Assembly (NCBI GenBank): GCA_016219065.1
Contig: JACRCK010000273.1
Span: 1 to 35,688, forward strand
DNA from: Deltaproteobacteria bacterium
GTDB taxonomy: Bacteria; Desulfobacterota; RBG-13-43-22
DNA length: 35,688 nucleotides
Direction of reading: 5' to 3'
Within the stretch, counting starts at the first letter, position 1, and the number at the start of each line of letters is the position of its first letter. Made by a program: the position numbers and the translations under genes. Shown piece by piece: positions 16,508 through 31,336 of the stretch. The notes beneath the pieces were generated by a model. The model was not told the origin of the DNA. It saw only the letters and a list, made by a program, of their open reading frames with translations, and made no database searches.

Positions 16508-18637
16508 ATGGACCGGTTTGAAACCCGAAAATCCGTACCGTCCGACCCCGAAGAGGCATTTTTCGAGGCCCTGTTGCAATACTTCACCTCCCGAGAAGCC
16601 GGGGAGCCTCTGGCCCAGACGATTGCCGACGGATTGGAGGTTTTTCAAGCCCTCGGGGAGACCCGGTCGGTCTCTTTGTATTGGCTGGATTCGGAAACCT
16701 TCGAGTTTCGCTTCGGAGCCTCCCGACCGGAAATGCCGGCCGAAAAAGCCGAGGCGCAATTTCGAAGACTGGTGGAACAAGGAGCGGTGGCCGCCGCGAT
16801 TCATTCGGTTCAGGCAGGCCCGCACGGATATTTCCAGGCCGGCCGGGATGGGGAGGCGCCTTTCTTGCTTTTTCCGCTGATCAACTCCTCCGGACTGTTG
16901 GGCCTGCTGTTATTAGAGCAGGCGGTCCGGCCGGAGGGCCTGCCGCCGGAAGTGTCCACCGGATCGGCCCTGGGCGTGCAACAATTCTCCCGTCTCCTGC
17001 AGAACCGGCTGCTGTCCATGGACCTGGAACAGCAAAAGGGAATTCTGAATCAAAAAATCACCGCCCGGACCCTGGAATTGGAAAAATCAGAGCAAGAGTT
17101 GCGGGCCATCCTGGATTCCATCAACGCCGCGGTGTTGATCGTCGATTCCGTCAATTATCGGATCCTGGAATGCAATAAGACGGCCCTGGACCTCATCGGG
17201 CTCGACAAGACCGAGGTGACCGGGTCCTTTTGCCAGCGCTTCATGTGCGTTCTGGAAAAAGGGCGTTGCCCGGTGCTGGATTTCGGCCAGACCATCCACA
17301 ATACCGAACAGGACCTGGTCATCGGGAACGGCAGTAAAGTCCCCGTCCTGAAGAAGGTGTCCTCCATTTTTTGGCAGGGACGAAAATGTCTGGTCGAAAG
17401 TTTTATCGATATAACCGAGCAAAAGTTTTTGGAAAACCAATTCCATGAGACCCAGAAACTGGAGGCTATCGGCCGATTGGCCGGGGGGGTGGCGCACGAT
17501 TTCAATAACCTGCTGATGGCCATTATGGGGTACAGCGACCTGATGCTGATGAACCTGCCGAAAGCGGAAACAACCCTGTCCAATCAGATCCGGGAGATTA
17601 AAAAAGCGGCGCAGCGGGCTGCCGATCTGACCCAGCAGCTTCTGGAACTCAGCCGCAAGCAGGTGCTGGAGCCCAAAATTCTCGATTTGAACGCCATTAT
17701 CATCGATTTCGAAAAGATCTTGTGGCGACTGCTCGGCGAGGATGTGGAACTGGTGACCATCCTCGATCCGACTCTGGGAAATATCAAGGGGGATCGGGGG
17801 CACCTGGAACAGATCATCATCAATCTGGCCATCAATGCCCGTGAGTCCATGATGTCCTCGGGAGGTAAGCTGATCATCGAAACCAGCTTTGTGGCGATCG
17901 GACAAACCACGCCGCGACGATATCCGCTCATGGCCCCCGGGCCCTATGCCCTGCTGGCGATCAGCGACAACGGTCGGGGGATGGATCCGGAGACCCGTTC
18001 CAAGATTTTTGAACCGTTTTTCACCTTTAAGGAACGACAAAGGCGGCCCGGTTTGGGGTTGTCGACCGTTTACAGTATCGTCAGGCAATCCGGGGGGTAT
18101 ATCTGGGTCTACAGCGAAGTAAACCAGGGGACCACCTTCAAGATCTATTTCCCCCTGGTTGAGGAAAGTTTTCAGGGTCGAGAGGGCGGCTACGGATCCG
18201 GAAAGGTTTTGCCCGGTTCGGAAACCATTTTGTTGGTGGAAGACGAGGACCTGCTGCGCAAACCCATTCGGGAAATTCTGGAAATGAACGGCTATGTCGT
18301 TCTGGAAGCCGGCAACGGAGAAGAAGCCTTCCGACTGGCGGAACAGTACGCCGAGGCCATCGACCTGCTGCTGACCGACGTGGTCATGCCGGGTGTAAAC
18401 GGCCGGGAATTGGCCGAGCAACTCACCTCGCTACGGCCCAATTTGCGGGTGTTGTTCATGTCGGGATATACCAATAATATGGTCGTTCATCATGGCATCC
18501 TCGAAGAGGGCCTGGCCTTCCTGGAAAAACCGTTCACCCCGGAAGCCCTGGCTGTAAAAATCCGGCAGGTTTTACGGGGGGTTCCGTTGAAGACCGGGAA
18601 CGTTTCGAACACGCCCCCCACCCGGTCGCCCCACTAG
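16508..18637 (+). CDS. Hybrid sensor histidine kinase / response regulator with PAS domain
   Basis: 709 aa, no membrane helices. The N-terminal ~165 residues look GAF-like, then a helical linker. A PAS domain (about 195-305) carries three cysteines (CQRFMCVLEKGRCPVLD). The HisKA segment GRLAGGVAHDFNNLLMAIMG has the phospho-accepting H330. The ATPase has N-box QIIINLAINARESMM, G1 DNGRGMDP and G2 GLGLSTVYSIV. A REC domain (about 575-690) has the acidic pair LLVEDED, phospho-acceptor LLTDVVMPG and lysine FLEKPF. It probably senses a soluble cytoplasmic signal. AAGGTG precedes the ATG. It follows the HDOD gene and precedes a REC protein. Confidence 0.93.
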   Translation: MDRFETRKSVPSDPEEAFFEALLQYFTSREAGEPLAQTIADGLEVFQALGETRSVSLYWLDSETFEFRFGASRPEMPAEKAEAQFRRLVEQGAVAAAIHSVQAGPHGYFQAGRDGEAPFLLFPLINSSGLLGLLLLEQAVRPEGLPPEVSTGSALGVQQFSRLLQNRLLSMDLEQQKGILNQKITARTLELEKSEQELRAILDSINAAVLIVDSVNYRILECNKTALDLIGLDKTEVTGSFCQRFMCVLEKGRCPVLDFGQTIHNTEQDLVIGNGSKVPVLKKVSSIFWQGRKCLVESFIDITEQKFLENQFHETQKLEAIGRLAGGVAHDFNNLLMAIMGYSDLMLMNLPKAETTLSNQIREIKKAAQRAADLTQQLLELSRKQVLEPKILDLNAIIIDFEKILWRLLGEDVELVTILDPTLGNIKGDRGHLEQIIINLAINARESMMSSGGKLIIETSFVAIGQTTPRRYPLMAPGPYALLAISDNGRGMDPETRSKIFEPFFTFKERQRRPGLGLSTVYSIVRQSGGYIWVYSEVNQGTTFKIYFPLVEESFQGREGGYGSGKVLPGSETILLVEDEDLLRKPIREILEMNGYVVLEAGNGEEAFRLAEQYAEAIDLLLTDVVMPGVNGRELAEQLTSLRPNLRVLFMSGYTNNMVVHHGILEEGLAFLEKPFTPEALAVKIRQVLRGVPLKTGNVSNTPPTRSPH

Positions 18638-18667
18638 ACCAAGCTGAATCCAGGGTAATTTTTAGCT

Positions 18668-18727
18668 TAAATTCGAAATTCGAAATTCGAAACAAATTCA
18701 AATAACCAAAAGTCAAAAGACCGAAAC
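18668..18727 (+). repeat. TTCGAA-word dispersed repeat, copy B
   Basis: AAATTCGAAATTCGAAATTC followed by GAAACAAATTCAAATAACC and CAAAAGACCGAAAC. It belongs to the same family as the copies at 7741, 34296 and 34401, and lies after the histidine kinase stop. Confidence 0.65.
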
Positions 18728-18771
18728 TTCCTTCCTCCTGCTGGTAGGAAAAGGGAGGTTGAGGCCGTCGG

Positions 18772-18800
18772 TTGACAACCGCCCGCGGCGATGGTATAAA
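18772..18800 (+). promoter_or_regulatory. Sigma70-type promoter of the REC gene
   Basis: TTGACA (18772-18777), exactly 17 nt, TATAAA (18795-18800). A perfect -35 and near-perfect -10, 42 nt before the start codon. This separates the REC gene from the preceding kinase transcript. Confidence 0.75.
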
Positions 18801-18841
18801 TTCTGAAATAAACCATCTCGGGGAATCGGGGTAGTCGTTTT

Positions 18842-19537
18842 ATGACGGAGGCAGCAGGACATACCCGGATCTTGATCGCCGAGGACGATGAAATTCTGGG
18901 AGCGTTGCTCCGGGATTTTCTGCAAAATCCCGAACGGGAGATTACTATCCAAAAAAACGGTCTGGAGGCCATCCGGAGTTTAAAGGACCGGCCTGCCGAC
19001 GTTATCATCGCCGACCTCATGCTGCCGGGCGCCGATGGTCTCAAAGTCCTGAAGGAGGCCAAGGCCCTGCATCCGGGATGTGAGGTGATCATCATTACCG
19101 GATACGCTTCCCTGGATACGGCCATCCAGGCTATTCGCGGGGGAGCCTACGATTACATCCGCAAGCCCTTTAAGCTGGAAGAGCTGGAAGTGGGCGTGAA
19201 AAATGCCAGCGAAAAGATTTCCCTGATTCGGGAAAACCGGCGACTGATGCAGCGCCTCCGGGAGGCCCTGGGTGAAAAGGAGGGCCTGCAGAAGGCCTGG
19301 GACGAATTTCTGAACCAGGCCGAAAGTCCGGGCCCGAAACCGCCGGGGCCGTTTTCCGAAGCCGATCTCAGCATCACGCTGAAACAAATCCCCCCTGATT
19401 TTGATCTCCAGCGTCAGGATTTCAAGGAAAAGGCGCTGCAGATCCTTGATCGCCTGACCAAGCTCAAGAAACAGGACCTGATCGGGGAAGACGAATTTTC
19501 ATCCTTCAAGAAAATCCTGCTGGAAAAAATCAGCTGA
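18842..19537 (+). CDS. Response regulator with SHOCT-like C-terminal tail
   Basis: 231 aa. The REC domain (about 8-125) shows ILIAEDDE, phospho-acceptor VIIADLMLPGADG, ITGYASLDTA and lysine YIRKPF. A helical linker (ENRRLMQRLREALGEKEG) follows, then a proline-rich spacer (GPKPPGPF). The final ~30 residues (ILDRLTKLKKQDLIGEDEFS) read like a SHOCT helical hairpin, normally an oligomerisation or membrane-targeting tail, rather than a DNA-binding domain. It may be the output partner of the neighbouring hybrid kinase. It has its own strong promoter. Confidence 0.85.
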   Translation: MTEAAGHTRILIAEDDEILGALLRDFLQNPEREITIQKNGLEAIRSLKDRPADVIIADLMLPGADGLKVLKEAKALHPGCEVIIITGYASLDTAIQAIRGGAYDYIRKPFKLEELEVGVKNASEKISLIRENRRLMQRLREALGEKEGLQKAWDEFLNQAESPGPKPPGPFSEADLSITLKQIPPDFDLQRQDFKEKALQILDRLTKLKKQDLIGEDEFSSFKKILLEKIS

Positions 19538-19566
19538 CCCTGCGAGCCCCCTTTTAAGGAACAAGC

Positions 19567-20718
19567 ATGCCCCCGTTGCTGATTTATACCGATGAATATC
19601 AACGCTTCGATTACGGCCCCTATCATCCGCTGCAGGTCAAACGCCTCCAGTGGACCGTGACCCTGATGGAGGCATATGGACTGCTGGCCAAAAGAAAAAC
19701 CCGGATGGTGACCACCCGGCAGGCTACGGAAGCGGAAGCGCTGACCTATCATACCTGGGATTACCTGCAGATCTTGAAACAGATCAATTCCGGGTCCAAG
19801 GGCGAGGAGCTGGCCTCCTACGGGATCGGCCCGGGGGATAATCCGGCCTTCCCCGGGGTGTTGGATTGGGGGTTGTTCTGTGCCGGTGGCGCGTTGCAGG
19901 CCGGAGAGTGGGTGGTTTCCGGCCAGGGACCGGTGGCCTTTCATCTGGCCGGAGGGATGCATCACGCCCATAAAAGCAGCGCTGCGGGTTTCTGCTACCT
20001 GAACGATCCCGTCCTGGTCATCCTTTACCTGCGGTCACTGGGCAAGCGGGTGGCCTATATCGATATCGACGCCCATCACGGGGATGGCGTGCAGGAGGCT
20101 TTTTACCACAGCCGGGAGGTGTTGACCATCTCTTTCCACCAGAACGGCCGCACCCTTTTCCCGAGTACGGGATTCGTCAGTGAAATGGGGGCCGGCCCGG
20201 GAACGGGCTACTCGGTGAACGTACCCCTGCATCCCTGGACCGACGACGCGATTTTCAGTTGGGCCTTCGACCAGATCGTACCGTCGCTGCTCCAGGTCTT
20301 CAGGCCCGACGTCATCGTCACCCAACTGGGAGTGGATACTTTTTATAATGATCCCCTGGCCAATCTCAGCTTGACCAGCAAAAGTTTTTGCCACGCCGTA
20401 CGGTTTTTTAAGGGATTGAAAATACCCTGGGTGGCCTTAGGCGGCGGCGGGTACCATCTGGTCAATGTGGCCCGGGCCTGGACTCTGGCCTGGTCGATTA
20501 TGCTGGGCCGGGAGTTGGGACAGGAGAAACTGCCGCCGGATTTCCAGGAACTCATCCGGCCCCTGAACTTTAACGAGGAGTGGCTGCGCGATGAGGATTA
20601 TCAGGAGCAGGAACCCAACTGGCAACGGGCCAATGTGGAGGCGAAGGGGGTAGTCCGGGCCATTCAGGAAGCCATCTTCCCTTTTTTTAACATTTTCGGC
20701 TACGGCCAATGGATGTAG
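19567..20718 (+). CDS. Histone deacetylase / AcuC-family deacetylase
   Basis: 383 aa, as expected for the class. The arginase/deacetylase fold is marked by AFHLAGGMHHAHKSSAAGFC (catalytic His pair near 132-133), YIDIDAHHGDGVQEAFY (zinc Asp and His, 166-174), VTQLGVDTFYNDP (zinc Asp near 257) and GGGGYHLVNVARAW (292 on). All zinc and catalytic residues are present, so it is probably active, removing acetyl groups from lysines (for example on acetyl-CoA synthetase, as AcuC does) or from polyamines. AAGGAA precedes the ATG. No acs or acu gene is nearby. Confidence 0.9.
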   Translation: MPPLLIYTDEYQRFDYGPYHPLQVKRLQWTVTLMEAYGLLAKRKTRMVTTRQATEAEALTYHTWDYLQILKQINSGSKGEELASYGIGPGDNPAFPGVLDWGLFCAGGALQAGEWVVSGQGPVAFHLAGGMHHAHKSSAAGFCYLNDPVLVILYLRSLGKRVAYIDIDAHHGDGVQEAFYHSREVLTISFHQNGRTLFPSTGFVSEMGAGPGTGYSVNVPLHPWTDDAIFSWAFDQIVPSLLQVFRPDVIVTQLGVDTFYNDPLANLSLTSKSFCHAVRFFKGLKIPWVALGGGGYHLVNVARAWTLAWSIMLGRELGQEKLPPDFQELIRPLNFNEEWLRDEDYQEQEPNWQRANVEAKGVVRAIQEAIFPFFNIFGYGQWM

Positions 20719-20720
20719 TT

Positions 20721-20772
20721 CGAAGATAAAGACGAACGTCCAACATCCAACATCGAACGTCCAACATCGAAT
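20721..20772 (+). repeat. CCAACATCGAA-word repeat, copy 1
   Basis: AAAGACGAACGTCCAACAT and CCAACATCGAACGTCCAACATCGAATT-type words. Related copies lie at 21270-21318 (direct) and 21441-21472 (inverted). Confidence 0.65.
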
Positions 20773-20869
20773 TGTGGAATGGTCCACTATCGCCTTCGGC
20801 TGTGCCCTACGACATCTATTTTTCATGTTTCGTGGGCGGCCAGCGCAGGCGGCCAAGGGGGGGTGATCG

Positions 20870-21271
20870 GTGAACAAATCGCTGTTTGATAGGGCCATGT
20901 CCCGTTTTGAATGCCAGGTCTGCGGCACCTGCTGCCAAGGCGAAGGCGGAATTTACCTGAACGAAGAGGAAATAGACCGGATCGCGGATTTTTTAAGCGT
21001 CGACCGGGAGATTTTTTTAGCAAAATATTGCCGGACCCGGAACGGTCGCCGCTACATTCATATCCGGGAAGAAGACGGATACTGCCATTTCGCCGTCGAC
21101 GGCCAATGCACCATCCATCCCGTCAAGCCCACCCCCTGTCGCCAGTGGCCTTTCTTCAAACCCATGCTGACCGATCAAGCCAACTGGGAGGTGGCCCGCC
21201 ATTCCTGCCCGGCCCTGGCCCCCTTTAAAAGTCTGGAGGATTTCCTCAAGGGGATCCGGTCGGGGGACTAA
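20870..21271 (+). CDS. YkgJ-type cysteine-cluster protein
   Basis: 133 aa. The CxxCGxCC start (CQVCGTCCQGEG, near residue 15) and later Cys residues (CHFAVDGQCTIHPVKPTPCR, HSCPAL) form the eight-cysteine pattern of the YkgJ / zinc-or-iron-chelating family. Members are thought to bind an Fe-S cluster or zinc; the biological role is not settled. The start is GTG (20870) with a GGGGGGGTGAT ribosome site. The gene is bracketed by two direct copies of an intergenic word repeat. It stands alone. Confidence 0.88.
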   Translation: MNKSLFDRAMSRFECQVCGTCCQGEGGIYLNEEEIDRIADFLSVDREIFLAKYCRTRNGRRYIHIREEDGYCHFAVDGQCTIHPVKPTPCRQWPFFKPMLTDQANWEVARHSCPALAPFKSLEDFLKGIRSGD

Positions 21272-21318
21272 AAGACGAACATCGAACGTCCAACATCGAA
21301 CATCGAATTAAATACGAA
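21270..21318 (+). repeat. CCAACATCGAA-word repeat, copy 2
   Basis: AAAAGACGAACATCGAACG then TCCAACATCGAACATCGAAT. It overlaps the last base pair or two of the YkgJ-type gene stop and forms a direct repeat with 20721-20772. Confidence 0.65.
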
Positions 21319-21440: not shown

Positions 21441-21472
21441 GTTCATTCGATGTTCGATGTTGGATGTTCAAC
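21441..21472 (-). repeat. CCAACATCGAA-word repeat, inverted copy 3
   Basis: On the plus strand TTCGATGTTCGATGTTGGAT; the inverse gives ATCCAACATCGAACATCGAA. With copy 2 it makes an inverted pair around about 120 nt that also hold the words GGGCGTTGGGCGTTCGG. Confidence 0.65.
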
Positions 21473-21517: not shown

Positions 21518-22360
21518 ATGGAAACCGTAATCATCGAAGGAGTCACCCTGCATTTATGCCATCCGGACGTCTTCCCCCTGGACTGGGTGGGGCGTTCGGA
21601 CCTGATCGATCAGGTCCTGGCGGCCTGGTTGGTGATCGAGGAAAAGGACCTGCCGCTCAATCCCCGGATCGTAGGCAAGCCGGGGGTGGGGAAGACCACC
21701 CTGGCCTACGCCGCCGCCAAGCGGCTGGAGCGGGAGGTCTATTTTTTTCAGGCCACCATGGACACCCGGCCGGAAGACCTGATCGTCACCCCGGTCATCG
21801 CCGAACAGGGGAAGATCCGCTACATGGCCAGCCCGGTGGTGACGGCCATGCTGAAAGGGGGCGTCCTGATCCTGGACGAAGGCAATCGCATGAGCGAGAA
21901 ATCCTGGGCTTCCCTGGCGCCCTTGCTGGACAATCGCCGCTACGTGGAGTCCATCGTAACGGGCTTGAAAATTCCGGCCCGCAAGGAATTCCGTTTTTGC
22001 GCCACCATGAACGACGACGCCAGCACCTTCGAATTGCCCGAATATATCCATTCCCGCCTGCAGCCTCAGATCTTCATCGACTTCCCGGAACCTGATGAAG
22101 AACGCCTGATTCTGCAGCGCAACCTGCCCTTCGCCCCCAAGGATATACTGGATTATGTGGTGCGTTTCCTGCAATTGGCCCATCAGGCCCACGAACGGTA
22201 CACCGTCCGGGACGGGATCAACATCGCCCGCTACTCCCTGAAGGTGCTGGAAAACAACCGGCTCTTAAGCGGAGCACCCCGCGAGGAGCGGCCGGGCCGG
22301 GCCCTGCGCCTGGCGATCGAGATGATCCTGGGGGATAAAGCGCTCAGGTATTTCTCATGA
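21518..22360 (+). CDS. MoxR-type AAA+ ATPase
   Basis: 280 aa. Walker A GKPGVGKTT (53-61), Walker B GGVLILDEGNRM (about 114-125), sensor 1 FCATMN (near 160-165) and the HSRLQPQIFIDFPEP segment place it in the MoxR/CbbQ (AAA_5) branch, which are chaperone-like ATPases that mature metal enzymes or remodel complexes, normally with a von Willebrand A partner. No such partner is present here. The next gene, 44 nt downstream on the same strand, is a large TraB/PrgY-like protein, and the pair probably forms a unit. It has a near-consensus promoter and no leader. Confidence 0.88.
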   Translation: METVIIEGVTLHLCHPDVFPLDWVGRSDLIDQVLAAWLVIEEKDLPLNPRIVGKPGVGKTTLAYAAAKRLEREVYFFQATMDTRPEDLIVTPVIAEQGKIRYMASPVVTAMLKGGVLILDEGNRMSEKSWASLAPLLDNRRYVESIVTGLKIPARKEFRFCATMNDDASTFELPEYIHSRLQPQIFIDFPEPDEERLILQRNLPFAPKDILDYVVRFLQLAHQAHERYTVRDGINIARYSLKVLENNRLLSGAPREERPGRALRLAIEMILGDKALRYFS

Positions 22361-22365
22361 AAAAA

Positions 22366-22395
22366 CAATAATTAATAACTAATTGTTAATTATTG
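22366..22395. repeat. AT-rich hairpin between the MoxR and TraB-like genes
   Basis: CAATAATTAA (22366-22375) and TTAATTATTG (22386-22395) are exact inverse arms around a 10-nt loop. It fills the gap between the MoxR stop and the next ATG, belongs to the AT-rich word repeats and may dampen or balance translation of the second gene. Confidence 0.55.
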
Positions 22396-22404
22396 ACGAT
22401 AGTC

Positions 22405-24258
22405 ATGGCCCAGAACAACCCCACCGATCCATTTGTTTTCAAGAATATCCACCTCCTGCCCATTCTCCATAACCGCCTGGAATTCGCCTTGGAGGTCCAC
22501 CGGCGCATTCAGCAAATTCGGCCCACGGCCCTGGCGGTGGAACTGCCGCCGACCCTGCAGGAAAAAATAACGGGGGCGGTGGGGCGTCTGCCTTTTCTGT
22601 CCGCCGTGGTTTACCAGGAAAAAAACGGCCGCCATATCTACCTAGTCATCGAACCGGTGGATGGAATCATAGAGGCCCTGCGGCTGGGCAGGGAAGAAAC
22701 GATCCCGGTTTTTTTTATCGACCGGGATACGGAAGGGTATCCCGCCTACCGGGAACCCCTACCGGATCCCTTTGCCGTTACCCAGGTCGGTTATGAGGCC
22801 TATTGCCGGGCCTTCCTGACCGAACGGGGGGGGGAGGTCCCCTCCGCTGAAGACCTGCTCCGGGAACGGACCATGGCCCATCAGGCCCTGGAGTTGGGCC
22901 GCCGTTTCGAACGGGTCCTGGTGGTCTGCGGTCTGGCCCATTTCCCGGGAATAATCAGGCTCCTGAGCGAAGAGCCGGCCCTGCCCTTCGGCCGGCGGCA
23001 ACGGGCCGGAGTCCTCCTGGGCCGACTGCAGGAAAGCTCCAGCCGGGAGATCTTATCCGAAATGCCTTTCCTGCAGCGCCGGTATGAAGAAGAACGGTCC
23101 CGGGCCCGGGAGAACCGGAATTGGGCCGCCTTTTGGAATTTAAACCGGTTGGCGATCCGGGACGAGCTGCTGGAGGAGGCCGTCCGGCGTCAGCAGCAGA
23201 ACAGCCGGGAGCAGGTCCAGGAGCCGGCCCTGGCGGTGCTGAAAAAATTCGCCCGCAATTACGCCTTTATCCAGGGGACCCTGACCCCGGATTTTTACCA
23301 GCTGCTGGTGGCCGCGCGCGGCGCGGTCAATGACAACTTTGCCTATGAGGTCTGGGATCTGGGGTCCCATTACCCCTATCAGGAAACGACCGGCCCCCTT
23401 CCGGAAATCGAGGTAACGGCCCGGGATTTACGAATCAACCAGAAGAAAATCCAGTTTTACCGGCGGTTCCGTTCTTTTCGCCGGCGGCTGGTCCCGGTGC
23501 CGGCCAAGAGAAGGACTACTCCCGCCGAACGGGAGGAGTTCAAAAAAAGGTGGCGGGGCGACTATATCTGCTCCTACCCGCCGGAAGATATTCGGGTGGA
23601 AGGTTTCGGTGATTATCTGAAGAAAAAGGCCCGGGGGGCCTTGTCCCAGGAGCAGATCCGTCTGCTCCCCTTTACCGCCTCCCTGCTGGACGGCCTGGAC
23701 GTCAAGGAAACGCTGCGCCACCTGGTCGAGGATAAAATATACGTCCGGGAGGAAAGGGCCGTCCGCGGCCGGGTTGGTTCCGTGGTCTTTGTTTTCGACG
23801 AGGACGAGCCGGTTTCCGGCCGGCCGCCGCGTTTTCCCTGGAAAATAACCTGGCTGGGGGAACACGATCAGGAATCGGACATGGCCTTTTACGCCACGCC
23901 CGCCGGGGAGGAGGTGGTCGGTCCCGGCATTTCCCGCTGCGAGTACGGGGGTTTTGTCTTGAGCTATCCCCCTTTACGGATGGCGGACATCTGGAAAGAC
24001 CGCTTCTTTGATCCGGCCCGGTCCAAGGCGGAGCGACTGCTCCTGGCCGGCATCGATTACAGCGAAGAGCAGTTGGTGGCCTATGTTGCTTCCCGGCCGC
24101 CCCGTTCCTTCTGCCGGACCTTGGCCTCCAGTCAGGGGAAAAAGATCGTCTATCTGCCCCTGGGACAGTTCTCGCCGGTCCTGTTGACCCGGATCCGCTT
24201 CTTTCATGTGCTGGAAAGCCCGGAATTGAGGAAAACGGCCGATCTCTATATCCGCTGA
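22405..24258 (+). CDS. Large protein with N-terminal TraB/PrgY-like domain, partner of MoxR
   Basis: 617 aa from the ATG at 22405. The track start is the TTG at 22393, which lies in the AT-rich hairpin. The N-terminal ~210 residues resemble the TraB/PrgY/ChaN group: an opening KNIHLLPILHNRLEFALEVH, RPTALAVELPPT, then LLRERTMAHQALELGRR and VLVVCGLAHFPGIIRLL; the last two match the ER...L and GxAH..G signatures. These hold the His and Glu residues that bind metal in the fold. The middle and C-terminal parts (a basic stretch FYRRFRSFRRRLVPVPAKRR, then an acidic beta-rich domain) match no family I know. No signal peptide or membrane helix. With a MoxR ATPase directly before it, it may be its client. 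Fold moderately sure, function unknown. Confidence 0.65.
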   Translation: MAQNNPTDPFVFKNIHLLPILHNRLEFALEVHRRIQQIRPTALAVELPPTLQEKITGAVGRLPFLSAVVYQEKNGRHIYLVIEPVDGIIEALRLGREETIPVFFIDRDTEGYPAYREPLPDPFAVTQVGYEAYCRAFLTERGGEVPSAEDLLRERTMAHQALELGRRFERVLVVCGLAHFPGIIRLLSEEPALPFGRRQRAGVLLGRLQESSSREILSEMPFLQRRYEEERSRARENRNWAAFWNLNRLAIRDELLEEAVRRQQQNSREQVQEPALAVLKKFARNYAFIQGTLTPDFYQLLVAARGAVNDNFAYEVWDLGSHYPYQETTGPLPEIEVTARDLRINQKKIQFYRRFRSFRRRLVPVPAKRRTTPAEREEFKKRWRGDYICSYPPEDIRVEGFGDYLKKKARGALSQEQIRLLPFTASLLDGLDVKETLRHLVEDKIYVREERAVRGRVGSVVFVFDEDEPVSGRPPRFPWKITWLGEHDQESDMAFYATPAGEEVVGPGISRCEYGGFVLSYPPLRMADIWKDRFFDPARSKAERLLLAGIDYSEEQLVAYVASRPPRSFCRTLASSQGKKIVYLPLGQFSPVLLTRIRFFHVLESPELRKTADLYIR

Positions 24259-26960: not shown

Positions 26961-29900
26961 CTAAGGCTTCACGATCAAAGGCAGATAGACAATAGATCCG
27001 GAAATGAAATCCTGGGCCACGAAATCGGAAACAAGATTAGTATAGGTCCGGCTGGAGGGTGAAAAGGCGTAGCCGTTGGCAATTGGCGTTACCGTGCCGG
27101 ACCAGCCTTCATTGAAAGCCAATTGAAAATTGCCGCTGCCGTCGGTTACCGTGGTTTCACTGGAACTGGCGTTTAAGGTTACGCCGGCCAGTGCCGAGCC
27201 ATTTCCTTTAATCCGTCCGGAGATGGTGTGAATTGGTACAGAAATAGCCGTGTAATTTTGACCGGTTAACTCGGTGTCCACGAGGCTGTAACTCGACGAG
27301 TTCGGCTCGAAGCGATAGCCGAGCAGGGCCGGTGCGACCGTCCCGGACCAGTCATAACTCAACCGGACGCGGTAGTTGCCGGAGGCGTCGGTTTGCGGAT
27401 TTCCGGGTAAACCGGTGAGACGAACTCCACCCAAGCCGCCGCCGCTGCTTTTTTCAATTTTCCCGTTAAGGTAGATCATCCAAAGGGCGGTAAAGTGCTC
27501 ATTGTCCAAATTGTTTTCTACTGAAGTATAGTTATGAGTCGGCAGATTAAATGTGTAACCGTTTTGGAAGGGTTCTACGGTTACCGGGGTTTCTCCTTTT
27601 TTCACCATAAACTGGTACCGGCCGGTGCCGTCGGTGGTCGTGGTGAAAGGGGGATCGCTGGTAGTGACGATGAGGGTCACTCCCGGTACGGCGGTTCCAT
27701 CACCTTCCCGGACCAGGCCGGAGACCTGAACAGCCGGGTAAGCGGTATAATCTTGAGTCGCCGGTTGGTTCAGGTTATCGTAGGTTGATGAATCCGGGGG
27801 GCCAAGGATATAACCGGTCAAGATCGGTGTCACTTTTCCGGACCAGTTATTGCTAACCTTGGCCATATAGTACCCTTCAAACCCCGGGTCGGATCGGGTC
27901 AGGGGATTTCCGGGGAGACCGGACATCAAGACATTGGGGAGGCCTTGGCCGGTTTTCGTTTTGACGTAACCGGAAACATTAACCTGCCATTCAGCTTGAT
28001 AATCCTGGCCTTCCAGGTCGTTTATTACATTGGTGTAGTCGGTATAAGGATTGACAAAGATATAGCCCGGCTTTCCGGGGGTCACCCTTCCGGACCAGCC
28101 TTCTTTTACGGCCAAGGTGTAACTGCCGTTAATTGAGGCCGTCGATCCGCCGTTGTTGCTAGCTGTTAAAATAACCTCGGGCACGTCCGTCGTTCCCTCC
28201 CAAATTTGGCCTCTTATATACCAGGCCTTATCCCCCCAATAATCGTGACCTGCCAGCTCGCTGGTAACGCTCGTGTACGTGCGCGAACGCGCTCCCGTCC
28301 CCGCGAGATCTTCGGTAAACAAAGTATGGTCATAAACAGGGGTTACGGTGCCGTTCCAACCCGACCTGACCCGGGAGCGGTACGCGCCGCTGGCATCGGT
28401 GTTCTGGGGTTGATCGGTGATCGGGTGCCGGGGCATGCCGTCGAGGACGACAACGTTATTGAAGGGATTGTCGGCCCGGGTTTTAACTTGTCCGGAAATA
28501 TAAACTTTCCAGGTGGCGTTATAATGCTCGGTATAAGTATTGAGCTGTAAATTGGAATAGGTTCTATTCTGTGGGGTGAAACCGTTTTCGTACCCCGCCT
28601 TAGAGGGGGTTATGGTCCCGGACCAATTGGTGGGTTGATAAATCCGGTATTTTCCTTCATTATCCGTAACCGTGGAGATGCCGTTGCTGGCCGTGACCTC
28701 AACCCCCGAGGCAGGTGTTCCAAGTTCATCATCAATGATACGTCCCTCGATGGCTAGCATAATGATCGCGGCGGAGAAATCCTGGACCTCATCCCTGAAG
28801 ATATCCTGATAAGTTTTGAAAGGAGGATTAAAAACGTAATCTCCCAGATTCGGGGTTATCGTCCCGTCCCAACCATCTTCAACTACAAACTGATAGTTCC
28901 CATTGCTGTCGGTTGCGGCAGCGGTCCCGTCGGTAATCGTAACGGTTACTCCACTTTGCGGGTAGCCGCCGATGGTGACCTTTCCGGAAATAGTCCGGTA
29001 GGCCAGTTTGATGACAAAGGTATCATCAAGACCCTGACCATGATAAGATTCTATCGGTGGTAAGCTCCCCCAGAGCCAGTTAGCAGTACTCTTTCCGGTG
29101 ATATAGACGGTTTTATTAACGTCCACCGCAATGCTTTGCCCTAAGTCATTTCCTGCTCCGCCAAGGAAGGTATTCCAGAGGCGCTCCCCCGTATTCTTCA
29201 GTTTGGCGGCAAAGGCGTCGGTGGTCCCCGAGGTAAAGGGCCGTATGGGATCGCCCCAGTCGGCGAGGCTGTACCCGGTTACCAGGATTTCACCATTGCC
29301 GTCCAAGGCGAGGGCTGTGCCGTAGTCATAGCCATCAACCTCATCCCCCGAGCCTAGAAAGGTATGCCATTGCAGGTCTCCACCCAAAGCGGCCAGTTTG
29401 GCTACAAAAACATCACCATTATACGAGTAAGGATGCACCGGGTCCTCGGTCCAGCCCCCATGGCCGTCTCCTATGACATAACAGTATTCTTCGCTGCCGT
29501 CCACCGCGATACCTCTTCCGGAATATTGACTGCCGGAACCCAGAAAAGTATTCCAGACTAGAACCCCCCCGGCGTCAAGTTTGGATAGAAAGGCATCCGT
29601 TCCTACGGAGTGGGGCCGAACCACTTTGGCGCCGCCCCAGGTGTTCTTGCTGGTCCCGACCACGTAGGTATTCCCCGAGTCCGCCACTGCCAGATCCTCA
29701 CCCTCATCCCAATTCCCTTCCCCGTAAGCTCCCAGGAAGGTATACCAATCCAGACTCAAATCCTGAGCGTTCAACCGGGCCACAAAAGCATCGTTAAAAC
29801 CACCGTAACTTTGTTTCGGTTCGGGGGCGTTCTGCCAGGACCCGTCGCCGGTCCCCACCACGAAGACTTTTCCATTCCTTACAGCGATCTTTTTTCCGAA

Positions 29901-30917
29901 ATCCTGTCCGTTGGTGGACCCCAGAAAGGTATGTTTCAACAGTTCACCCGTTTCCGCGGACAGCTTGGCCACGAAGGCATCCATACCTTCCCCGTTCGGA
30001 CCGCTAAAACCGCGAGTCGGATTCATCCCCCAGTTGTGAAAGCTAGTACCGGTTATATAGATATTTCCACTGCCGTCCAGGGCGATCCCATTTCCGTAAT
30101 CCTCTTCGTTCTCTCCACCCGATCCCAGGAAGGTGTTCCAGATTTGGGTCCCTGACGTCCCATCCAATTTGGCGACAAAGGCGTTTTTATTGTCTGAGCC
30201 GGGGAACGGGTTCACCACGTGCCCCCCCCAGTCATATTCGCTGGTTCCGGTAATATATACGTTTCCGTTCTCGCCCACAACGATCCCGTTGGCGAAATCC
30301 GTGTGGGAAGTCCCCAGGAAGGTATTCCAGGTGCCGACCGGATCGATGACCAGCCGGTTGGCCCCTTTCCAGCCCGAAACCGAAAAACCGATTTCCCGAT
30401 CGCTCAACTGCCGGTAGGAAACGGTTACGGATTTGGCGACGCCCTTTGCTTCTTCCCAGGCTACGGGCGGCGCTTCTCTGAATTCTCCGTTTTCGTAACG
30501 GACGACCAGTTCCCCCCGGTGATTGACGTGGACCGGTTGGTTGTAACGGAGGCGGATGGACGCGGGATCACCGCCGGGGTTGACCATATAGGTGCTCTTG
30601 ATGACGCCCTGAGCGGCTCTTTCATAGACCAGGTCGATATTCCGCCACAAGGAGGAATAAAGCACTTTAGGATCAGGCTGGGAAGCTTCCAGCGGTGAGG
30701 CCTTTTCCAGGGTCGGGGTTACCGGCCGGGCGCCGGCAAAGTCGATCGTGACGGCATGGTCTCGAGCCGCCATTACCAGGCGCTCGGGATAAAAACCCAG
30801 AACATGACCGCCGGAGGTCCAATAAGTCGCCGGCCTTTCGGCTCCGCAGACCGGGCCGCCGTGGCCGATCAACAAAGCCGCTGCCAATAGAATGATTTTT
30901 TGCCAGGTTAAAGACAT
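26961..30917 (-). CDS. Secreted beta-propeller (SBBP repeat) and Ig-like repeat protein
   Basis: I place the start at ATG 30917 (1318 aa), where a signal peptide begins (MSLTWQKIILLAAALLIGHG); the track's longer ORF adds 47 residues with no such signal. A propeller-associated N-domain (about 30-190, with WRNIDLVYERAAQGVIKSTY) is followed by seven ~64-residue propeller repeats with WNTFLGSG and GNIYITGTS (about 194-640). Eight ~82-residue Ig-like units with GWSGTVTP, each starting ISGxV-like, follow. Odd and even units differ, implying two-unit duplication. The last residues are SIVYLPLIVKP. A large extracellular or surface adhesion-type protein; substrate unknown. AGGAAAA precedes the ATG. 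Confidence 0.88.
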   Translation of the reverse strand: MSLTWQKIILLAAALLIGHGGPVCGAERPATYWTSGGHVLGFYPERLVMAARDHAVTIDFAGARPVTPTLEKASPLEASQPDPKVLYSSLWRNIDLVYERAAQGVIKSTYMVNPGGDPASIRLRYNQPVHVNHRGELVVRYENGEFREAPPVAWEEAKGVAKSVTVSYRQLSDREIGFSVSGWKGANRLVIDPVGTWNTFLGTSHTDFANGIVVGENGNVYITGTSEYDWGGHVVNPFPGSDNKNAFVAKLDGTSGTQIWNTFLGSGGENEEDYGNGIALDGSGNIYITGTSFHNWGMNPTRGFSGPNGEGMDAFVAKLSAETGELLKHTFLGSTNGQDFGKKIAVRNGKVFVVGTGDGSWQNAPEPKQSYGGFNDAFVARLNAQDLSLDWYTFLGAYGEGNWDEGEDLAVADSGNTYVVGTSKNTWGGAKVVRPHSVGTDAFLSKLDAGGVLVWNTFLGSGSQYSGRGIAVDGSEEYCYVIGDGHGGWTEDPVHPYSYNGDVFVAKLAALGGDLQWHTFLGSGDEVDGYDYGTALALDGNGEILVTGYSLADWGDPIRPFTSGTTDAFAAKLKNTGERLWNTFLGGAGNDLGQSIAVDVNKTVYITGKSTANWLWGSLPPIESYHGQGLDDTFVIKLAYRTISGKVTIGGYPQSGVTVTITDGTAAATDSNGNYQFVVEDGWDGTITPNLGDYVFNPPFKTYQDIFRDEVQDFSAAIIMLAIEGRIIDDELGTPASGVEVTASNGISTVTDNEGKYRIYQPTNWSGTITPSKAGYENGFTPQNRTYSNLQLNTYTEHYNATWKVYISGQVKTRADNPFNNVVVLDGMPRHPITDQPQNTDASGAYRSRVRSGWNGTVTPVYDHTLFTEDLAGTGARSRTYTSVTSELAGHDYWGDKAWYIRGQIWEGTTDVPEVILTASNNGGSTASINGSYTLAVKEGWSGRVTPGKPGYIFVNPYTDYTNVINDLEGQDYQAEWQVNVSGYVKTKTGQGLPNVLMSGLPGNPLTRSDPGFEGYYMAKVSNNWSGKVTPILTGYILGPPDSSTYDNLNQPATQDYTAYPAVQVSGLVREGDGTAVPGVTLIVTTSDPPFTTTTDGTGRYQFMVKKGETPVTVEPFQNGYTFNLPTHNYTSVENNLDNEHFTALWMIYLNGKIEKSSGGGLGGVRLTGLPGNPQTDASGNYRVRLSYDWSGTVAPALLGYRFEPNSSSYSLVDTELTGQNYTAISVPIHTISGRIKGNGSALAGVTLNASSSETTVTDGSGNFQLAFNEGWSGTVTPIANGYAFSPSSRTYTNLVSDFVAQDFISGSIVYLPLIVKP

Positions 30918-31336
30918 ATTCGTTTTCCTAAAGAAAATAATCACCTTTCCGGTTTTTCGGCATTTACTCCCATTTTCTAAAAAGGTAATTAGCAACTTCC
31001 GGGCCAAAGCCCTGGGTCCGCAGCCGGCGGGATGCCAAAAAAAATCCTTTAAAATCAATTGGTTTCCGAAAAGGCCGGCACCGGTCCGGGGAAGGGGAGG
31101 GAGGGTCCTTTTTTAAAGGGGGATTTCGGCCAAAAAATGCTATTAATACAGGAAAAATTGGTACTATAATTTTTTCGACGATGGGGTTATCATAATCGCG
31201 CCGGGGCACCGGTCCGCCATCTCCGGGCGACCACAGGGGGGCGCCCCTACACGTTTTGTGGGGGCCATTTCCATCCTGATGACGACTCCGGCAACCGGGG
31301 GATAATTCTGCTATACGAAGCCGAGGAGCCTGGGAC
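30918..31336. other. Non-coding divergent region
   Basis: About 420 nt between the propeller gene (minus) and korD (plus); the long minus and plus ORFs crossing it are not supported. A TATAAT at 31165-31170 could be a -10 box for korDABC, but no matching -35 is present. The block CGACCACAGGGGGGCGCCCC near 31230 is a GC-rich word that I have seen between genes in similar genomes. Confidence 0.45.

Follow-up and report, generated by a model that had tools for sequence, protein, structure and literature searches.

Described MoxR systems

To our knowledge, almost everything understood about MoxR ATPases comes from their partner proteins with von Willebrand A (VWA) domains. Seven MoxR subfamilies, namely MRP, APE0892, RavA, CGN, APE2220, PA2707, and YehL, have been described (PMC3893208). 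The helix-2 insert is the pore-facing element of MoxR proteins. The partners of MoxR rings are remodelled by them, and a NorD finger is gripped in the pore of NorQ; McrB holds McrC in the same way, and McrC is not a VWA protein and provides a solved precedent for the binding of a non-VWA partner to an AAA+ ring by a finger in the pore (PMC13036017). MoxR–vWA ternary conflict systems, with VMAP, iSTAND, FtsH, and beta-propeller, have also been described (PMC7159879). In E. coli, yehL-yehM-yehP-yehQ encode a MoxR protein, an uncharacterised protein, a VWA protein, and a SWIM protein, respectively; no function of YehM was found in the literature searched. Likewise, no paper on DUF5682 and no relevant paper on MoxR together with TraB was found in the open-access literature, subscription journals lying outside the search.

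Like YehL-YehM-YehP-YehQ, the locus described here has a gene for a MoxR-type ATPase directly preceding that for a protein, hereafter TraBL, whose N-terminus is a TraB-like domain of the DUF5682 type. Unlike that system, it contains no VWA or SWIM gene, the C-terminal two thirds of TraBL are different, and the ATPase is not recognisably a member of the YehL subfamily. The NorQ–NorD and CbbQ–CbbO systems, in which a CGN MoxR has a VWA partner, are similar in combining an AAA+ ring with a helix-2 insert and a dedicated large partner, and NorQ and CbbQ give weak profile matches to our ATPase; however, TraBL has no VWA domain, and no known client complex is encoded nearby. McrB–McrC resembles the MoxR–TraBL pair in its make-up of an AAA+ ring and a non-VWA partner, in which the McrC finger in the pore (PMC13036017) would have a putative counterpart in TraBL; unlike MoxR–TraBL, McrBC is an endonuclease complex. 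The ternary conflict systems also combine MoxR with a large additional protein, while MoxR–TraBL has neither vWA nor variable effectors, and is present in single copy with a conserved sequence.

The MoxR–TraBL locus

The window, i.e., the whole 35,688-nucleotide stretch of DNA analysed, carries on its plus strand a gene for a MoxR-like AAA+ ATPase of an apparently distinct subfamily (21518–22360, 280 aa) followed, after a gap of 44 bases, by the TraBL gene on the same strand (22405–24258, 617 aa), whose product consists of a TraB/DUF5682-like N-terminus, a helical middle part, and a novel C-terminal domain. Both genes lie where the initial annotation had placed them; all features listed below are on the plus strand. 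The mechanically predicted open reading frame of TraBL begins with TTG at 22393 (621 aa), and the ATG at 22405 (617 aa) is the likelier start. By hydropathy, neither protein appears to be membrane-bound; a membrane or secreted nature was rejected, no transmembrane-like stretch being present (highest 19-residue Kyte–Doolittle mean 1.55). A short AT-rich inverted repeat (aataattaataactaattgttaattatt) is located between the two genes (22366–22397).

AAA_5 and AAA_3 are Pfam families containing MoxR-type proteins, and the ATPase matches them with E-values of 2e-19 (AAA_5, the top match) and 1e-9. It has the AAA+ core of MoxR ATPases, including Walker A (GKPGVGKT, 21674–21697), the Walker B acidic pair DE (21875–21880), sensor 1, and the conserved arginine at the finger position, all of which are intact in the window and invariant among homologues. 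The helix-2 insert region (RPEDLIVTPVI...GKIRYMASPVVTAM, 21767–21850) was assigned by alignment and by analogy to NorQ (PMC13036017).

Among proteins with solved structures, the profile of this MoxR reaches Midasin, NorQ, and CbbQ, the latter two with only about 27–33 bits. No match to RavA or YehL was obtained at E<=10, while other MoxRs were detected near 40 bits, and the hhalign alignment to YehL was weak. In 99 relatives, members of the family score at least 266 bits, versus at most 46 bits for any other MoxR. In these comparisons, the ATPase does not appear to group with YehL or RavA, the two subfamilies compared in this way.

Domain structure of TraBL

The AlphaFold2 model of TraBL, built with 64 homologues, has a mean pLDDT of 88.9 and includes a TraB-like alpha/beta domain (approximately residues 12–190, 22438–22974), modelled mostly with pLDDT above 90. 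A Foldseek search against viral predicted structures returned a sole significant match, a 220-residue TraB-family protein (E 4.5e-5, probability 1.00); from the target size, the motifs, and the alignment to YehM we infer that this match is located on the N-terminal domain. The whole TraBL fold had no match in the PDB, where all E-values were 0.08 or higher, and no sequence relatives of TraBL with solved structures were found. Comparison by hhalign with residues 6–240 of E. coli YehM (E 3.5e-5) covered 198 N-terminal columns only, including the H, E, RE..MA, and GxxH positions. The TraB fold proposed for the N-terminus in the initial annotation is thus borne out by the structure prediction of the 617-aa protein alone.

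Proteins of the TraB/PrgY/Tiki type are characterised by two GxxH-like motifs and a glutamate. TraBL resembles them in its N-terminal fold and in these elements, which, on the basis of the alignment of homologues, are P19-x-x-H22 (22459–22470), E46 in AVELP (22540–22542), and G176-x-x-H179 in CGLAH (22930–22941), while R153-E154 of the RE..MA motif (22861–22866) aligns to REafMa of YehM. The PxxH/GxxH motif, E46, and the second GxxH occur in most TraBL members and are absent in two clades. In part of one lineage (f56), the first motif is G-x-x-H; L135 and L136 of this lineage have the classical GxxH there, as does YehM, which ties the TraBL family to the canonical TraB/YehM proteins. Unlike TraB/PrgY/Tiki proteins, TraBL has a dispensable site, is fused to a C-terminal domain of no known family, and is tied to a MoxR.

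The Pfam family DUF5682 (PF18934) matches the TraBL of the window with 15.2 bits (E 0.007), short of the gathering cut-off of 26; it is weakly matched by 45 of the 64 homologues (best E 9e-8) and is found above the cut-off, at the N-terminus only, in more divergent TraBL members from five genomes of the phylum. No match to Pfam TraB was obtained below E 0.017. These DUF5682 matches and the YehM alignment make the suggested relation to DUF5682-type MoxR systems a real one at the N-terminal domain. Full-length homology of TraBL to YehM/DUF5682 fails, only the N-terminal columns being alignable. Judging from sequence comparisons, MoxR–TraBL appears to be a variant of MoxR–DUF5682 systems such as YehL-YehM-YehP-YehQ, with the kinship residing in the TraB domain. 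One could go further and regard the pair as a diverged YehL-YehM system that has dispensed with the VWA and SWIM genes and performs the same biochemical job, as the N-terminal homology to YehM and DUF5682 and the shared gene order, ATPase and then TraB protein, would suggest; however, the C-terminal halves do not align and the MoxR profile misses YehL, which makes such an equivalence quite improbable.

Conservation within TraBL is highest in the C-terminal domain (approximately residues 380–617, 23542–24255), which belongs to no known family or fold and contains many invariant polar residues. The most prominent motifs are S390-Y-P-P-E-D395 (23572–23589), where S390, E394, and D395 are invariant in 64/64 homologues, T482-W-x-G-E-H-D-Q-E-S-D-M493 (23848–23883), where most positions are invariant in 64/64, and Y514-G-G516 (23944–23952), invariant in 64/64 in alignment A1. 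Folded alone, the domain was predicted with a pLDDT of 85 and a pTM of 0.79. No fold match to it was found in the PDB (best E 0.19), and no NCBIfam model rose above noise for the C-terminal 243 residues. The description of about 400 residues as belonging to no known family therefore stood, since Pfam gave only weak N-terminal matches to DUF5682/TraB. The C-terminal invariants could represent an enzyme site rather than an interface with MoxR.

Distribution and joint inheritance of the two genes

When 84,980 species genomes were scanned, 109 places were found to encode a TraBL relative. The best 80 of these 109 loci, which were analysed, come from records of Thermodesulfobacteriota/Desulfobacterota, Myxococcota, SAR324, Chlamydiota, and Armatimonadota. 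In 67 of these 80, the gene for the same MoxR directly precedes that for TraBL in the same orientation, and in 54 of the 67 the two genes are within 50 nt of each other or overlap. In the other 13 loci, MoxR is located 3.6–5.3 kb upstream (2 loci), the contig ends (3 loci), or MoxR is absent locally (8 loci). A MoxR elsewhere in the genome or 3.6–5.3 kb upstream was found for 11 of the 13 genomes without an adjacent one. In two draft genomes, G396 and G399, TraBL was present but no MoxR was detected, the TraBL gene of G399 being cut by the contig end. Judged by this recurrent, operon-like same-strand adjacency, the pairing is far beyond chance.

The presence and absence of the two genes in genomes, given here as raw counts with no phylogenetic correction, agree closely. 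In 99 relatives, TraBL was found in 22 and this MoxR in exactly the same 22. Among 395 genomes of the phylum, this MoxR was present in 64, and all 64 (64/64) also had TraBL, while the only two further genomes with TraBL (G359 and G391) contain truncated or stop-broken remnants and lack this MoxR. Both the presence and the absence of the two genes covary inside families f7, f32, f33, and f51, so deep inheritance alone does not account for the pattern. The family is present in single copy per genome.

In about ten genomes, the two genes are unlinked and both are nevertheless kept: they are on separate contigs in G002, G004, G009, G026, G045, and G199, and about 6–10 kb apart in G003, G152, and G361. 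Such retention strongly indicates that the two genes are functionally coupled regardless of linkage. The search for co-occurrence, as well as the adjacency in most loci, thus upheld the view of the initial annotation that this is a genuine two-gene system, a view that would be at odds with homologues usually lacking a MoxR neighbour. Given the near-constant joint inheritance, even when unlinked, MoxR and TraBL very probably make up one undescribed two-part machine without the usual VWA partner. Participation in a shared pathway could be an alternative cause of the co-inheritance.

Gene neighbourhood and the absence of a VWA partner

No third conserved gene recurred at the loci when the neighbours were clustered and 67 neighbouring proteins were compared with Pfam. 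Candidates for a third partner were rejected, being only lineage-specific or scattered genes, for example, those for PilZ, Usp, and MFS proteins and response regulators. In some Geobacterales (L140, L065), genes for a histidine kinase and a GGDEF response regulator, or for an SNF2 helicase, are located between MoxR and TraBL, which looks like insertion. A divergently oriented protoglobin-PsiE gene lies beside the MoxR gene in the Geobacterales loci L140 and L156, and ORFs resembling it, by sequence likeness only, were noted at L153, L157, and L065.

MoxR ATPases normally work with VWA proteins, and the lack of one near this MoxR, noted earlier, was confirmed by a Pfam scan of the flanking genes between 16508 and 25778. 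No VWA gene was recurrent in the best 80 of the 109 TraBL loci, none was present alongside the unlinked MoxR copies in the stretches read, and a search of the window's genome revealed no CoxE-type VWA. This genome has two VWA_2 matches, one in an unrelated place and the other beside a NorQ-like MoxR (L148, 207–3555; G000:C195), where the NorQ-like MoxR gene is followed by a 788-aa VWA-containing ORF; this locus provides a good internal contrast to MoxR–TraBL. A VWA domain hidden in TraBL was considered and rejected, since neither a MIDAS-like DxSxS after a strand nor a VWA fold match was found, and a profile comparison of TraBL with the VWA protein YehP yielded nothing.

Since no VWA gene lies nearby and none of the CoxE type was found in the genome, TraBL could take the place of the VWA protein, serving as an adaptor similar to ViaA, NorD, and CbbO; a third client, encoded elsewhere, would then be remodelled or matured by MoxR, and TraBL itself would not be the target. 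The well-studied MoxR pairs do act on a separate client, and the scattered neighbours are compatible with an unlinked one; however, a non-systematic search revealed no client gene that shares the phyletic pattern of the pair, and we regard the adaptor role as somewhat unlikely, preferring TraBL as the effector.

Loss of the predicted TraB metal site

Two separate, well-supported clades of TraBL have lost the predicted metal site. In the first, comprising six f28 genomes (L011, L012, L129–L132), the substitutions are H22P, E46V/T, and H179F/Q, and in the second, comprising two f56 genomes (L137, L138), they are H22D and H179T/S. Close sisters of these members keep the TraB-site residues, and the C-terminal invariants tested are essentially kept in the site-less proteins. 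The ratio of N-terminal to C-terminal conservation is 0.47 in the site-less f28 clade versus 0.77 in its sisters, indicating a relaxed N-terminus, while the effect is slight in the f56 clade (0.71 versus 0.80). In the MoxR proteins of both clades, the Walker A and Walker B motifs, sensor 1, and the arginine at the finger position are all preserved. Judging from these substitutions, the TraB site is dispensable. A more distant pair, L126 (G353:C72:2–3073, 285 and 738 aa), has largely lost the TraB motifs.

These data bear on the proposal of the initial annotation that MoxR loads metal into its TraB-like partner. Insertion of metal into the TraB site, or maturation of this site, by MoxR would have a parallel in NorQ/NorD, which insert iron (PMC13036017), and most TraBL proteins do keep the glutamate together with the two (P/G)xxH motifs. 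However, since the site has been lost in two clades with MoxR, its ATPase motifs, and the C-terminal invariants of TraBL retained, metal loading of the TraB site cannot be what the pairing is conserved for, and we consider it very improbable as the function of the system. Remodelling of TraBL by MoxR is the preferred reading.

Proposed function of the MoxR–TraBL pair

We tentatively propose, with a probability of about 0.4, that the pair is an AAA+ chaperone or remodelling machine, in which the ATPase, a member of an undescribed MoxR subfamily, has an obligate TraB-fold partner in place of a VWA protein; the C-terminal domain of TraBL, with its new fold, would both engage the ring and carry the essential activity, and the TraB site would be a losable accessory. 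The MoxR-like protein would form an ATP-driven ring, on which TraBL would dock mainly by its strictly conserved C-terminal domain, perhaps by inserting a finger or a terminus into the pore, as NorD and McrC do. ATP turnover would then change the conformation of TraBL and thereby control what the C-terminal domain does; in most lineages, MoxR may also control the hydrolase-like TraB domain, located at the opposite end of TraBL. The near-obligate joint inheritance, the operon-like adjacency, the intact ATPase motifs, and the domain identities are observations, and we infer a physical complex, pore engagement, and remodelling, as well as any client or enzymatic activity.

Being widespread, near-obligate, and free of VWA proteins, the MoxR–TraBL system is a clean and minimal setting in which to address the role of DUF5682/TraB proteins alongside MoxR machines, and the same question applies to E. 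coli YehL-YehM. The lineages naturally devoid of the TraB site can tell which part of TraBL the system needs.

A role in anti-phage defence or conflict, related to that of the MoxR–vWA ternary systems, is the least probable reading. Such ternary systems exist (PMC7159879), and a very distant MoxR and TraBL pair (L125, G131:C12:54000–68000; 317 and up to 782 aa), possibly a conflict-type relative, is surrounded by RyR-AAA, ThsB-type TIR, SLOG, and TIR/NB-ARC genes. However, the main family is highly conserved and present in single copy per genome, no variable effectors or defence-gene neighbourhood accompany it, and PADLOC gave no match for TraBL and only generic AAA+ matches for MoxR.

Genomic surroundings in the window

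The genes upstream of the pair (16508–21271) encode a hybrid histidine kinase, a response regulator, a histone-deacetylase-family protein, and a CxxCxxCC zinc/iron-chelating protein, and show no sign of conservation with MoxR–TraBL. Downstream, on the minus strand (26961–31058), a 1365-aa protein with DUF7948, an SBBP propeller, and carboxypeptidase-regulatory repeats is encoded. A dispersed intergenic repeat around TCGAACGTCCAACATCGAA occurs at 20732–20771, 21278–21307, and 21446–21471; exact matches to the 20-mer AACATCGAACRTCCAACATC number 93 across the genome, versus 0 for the reversed control.
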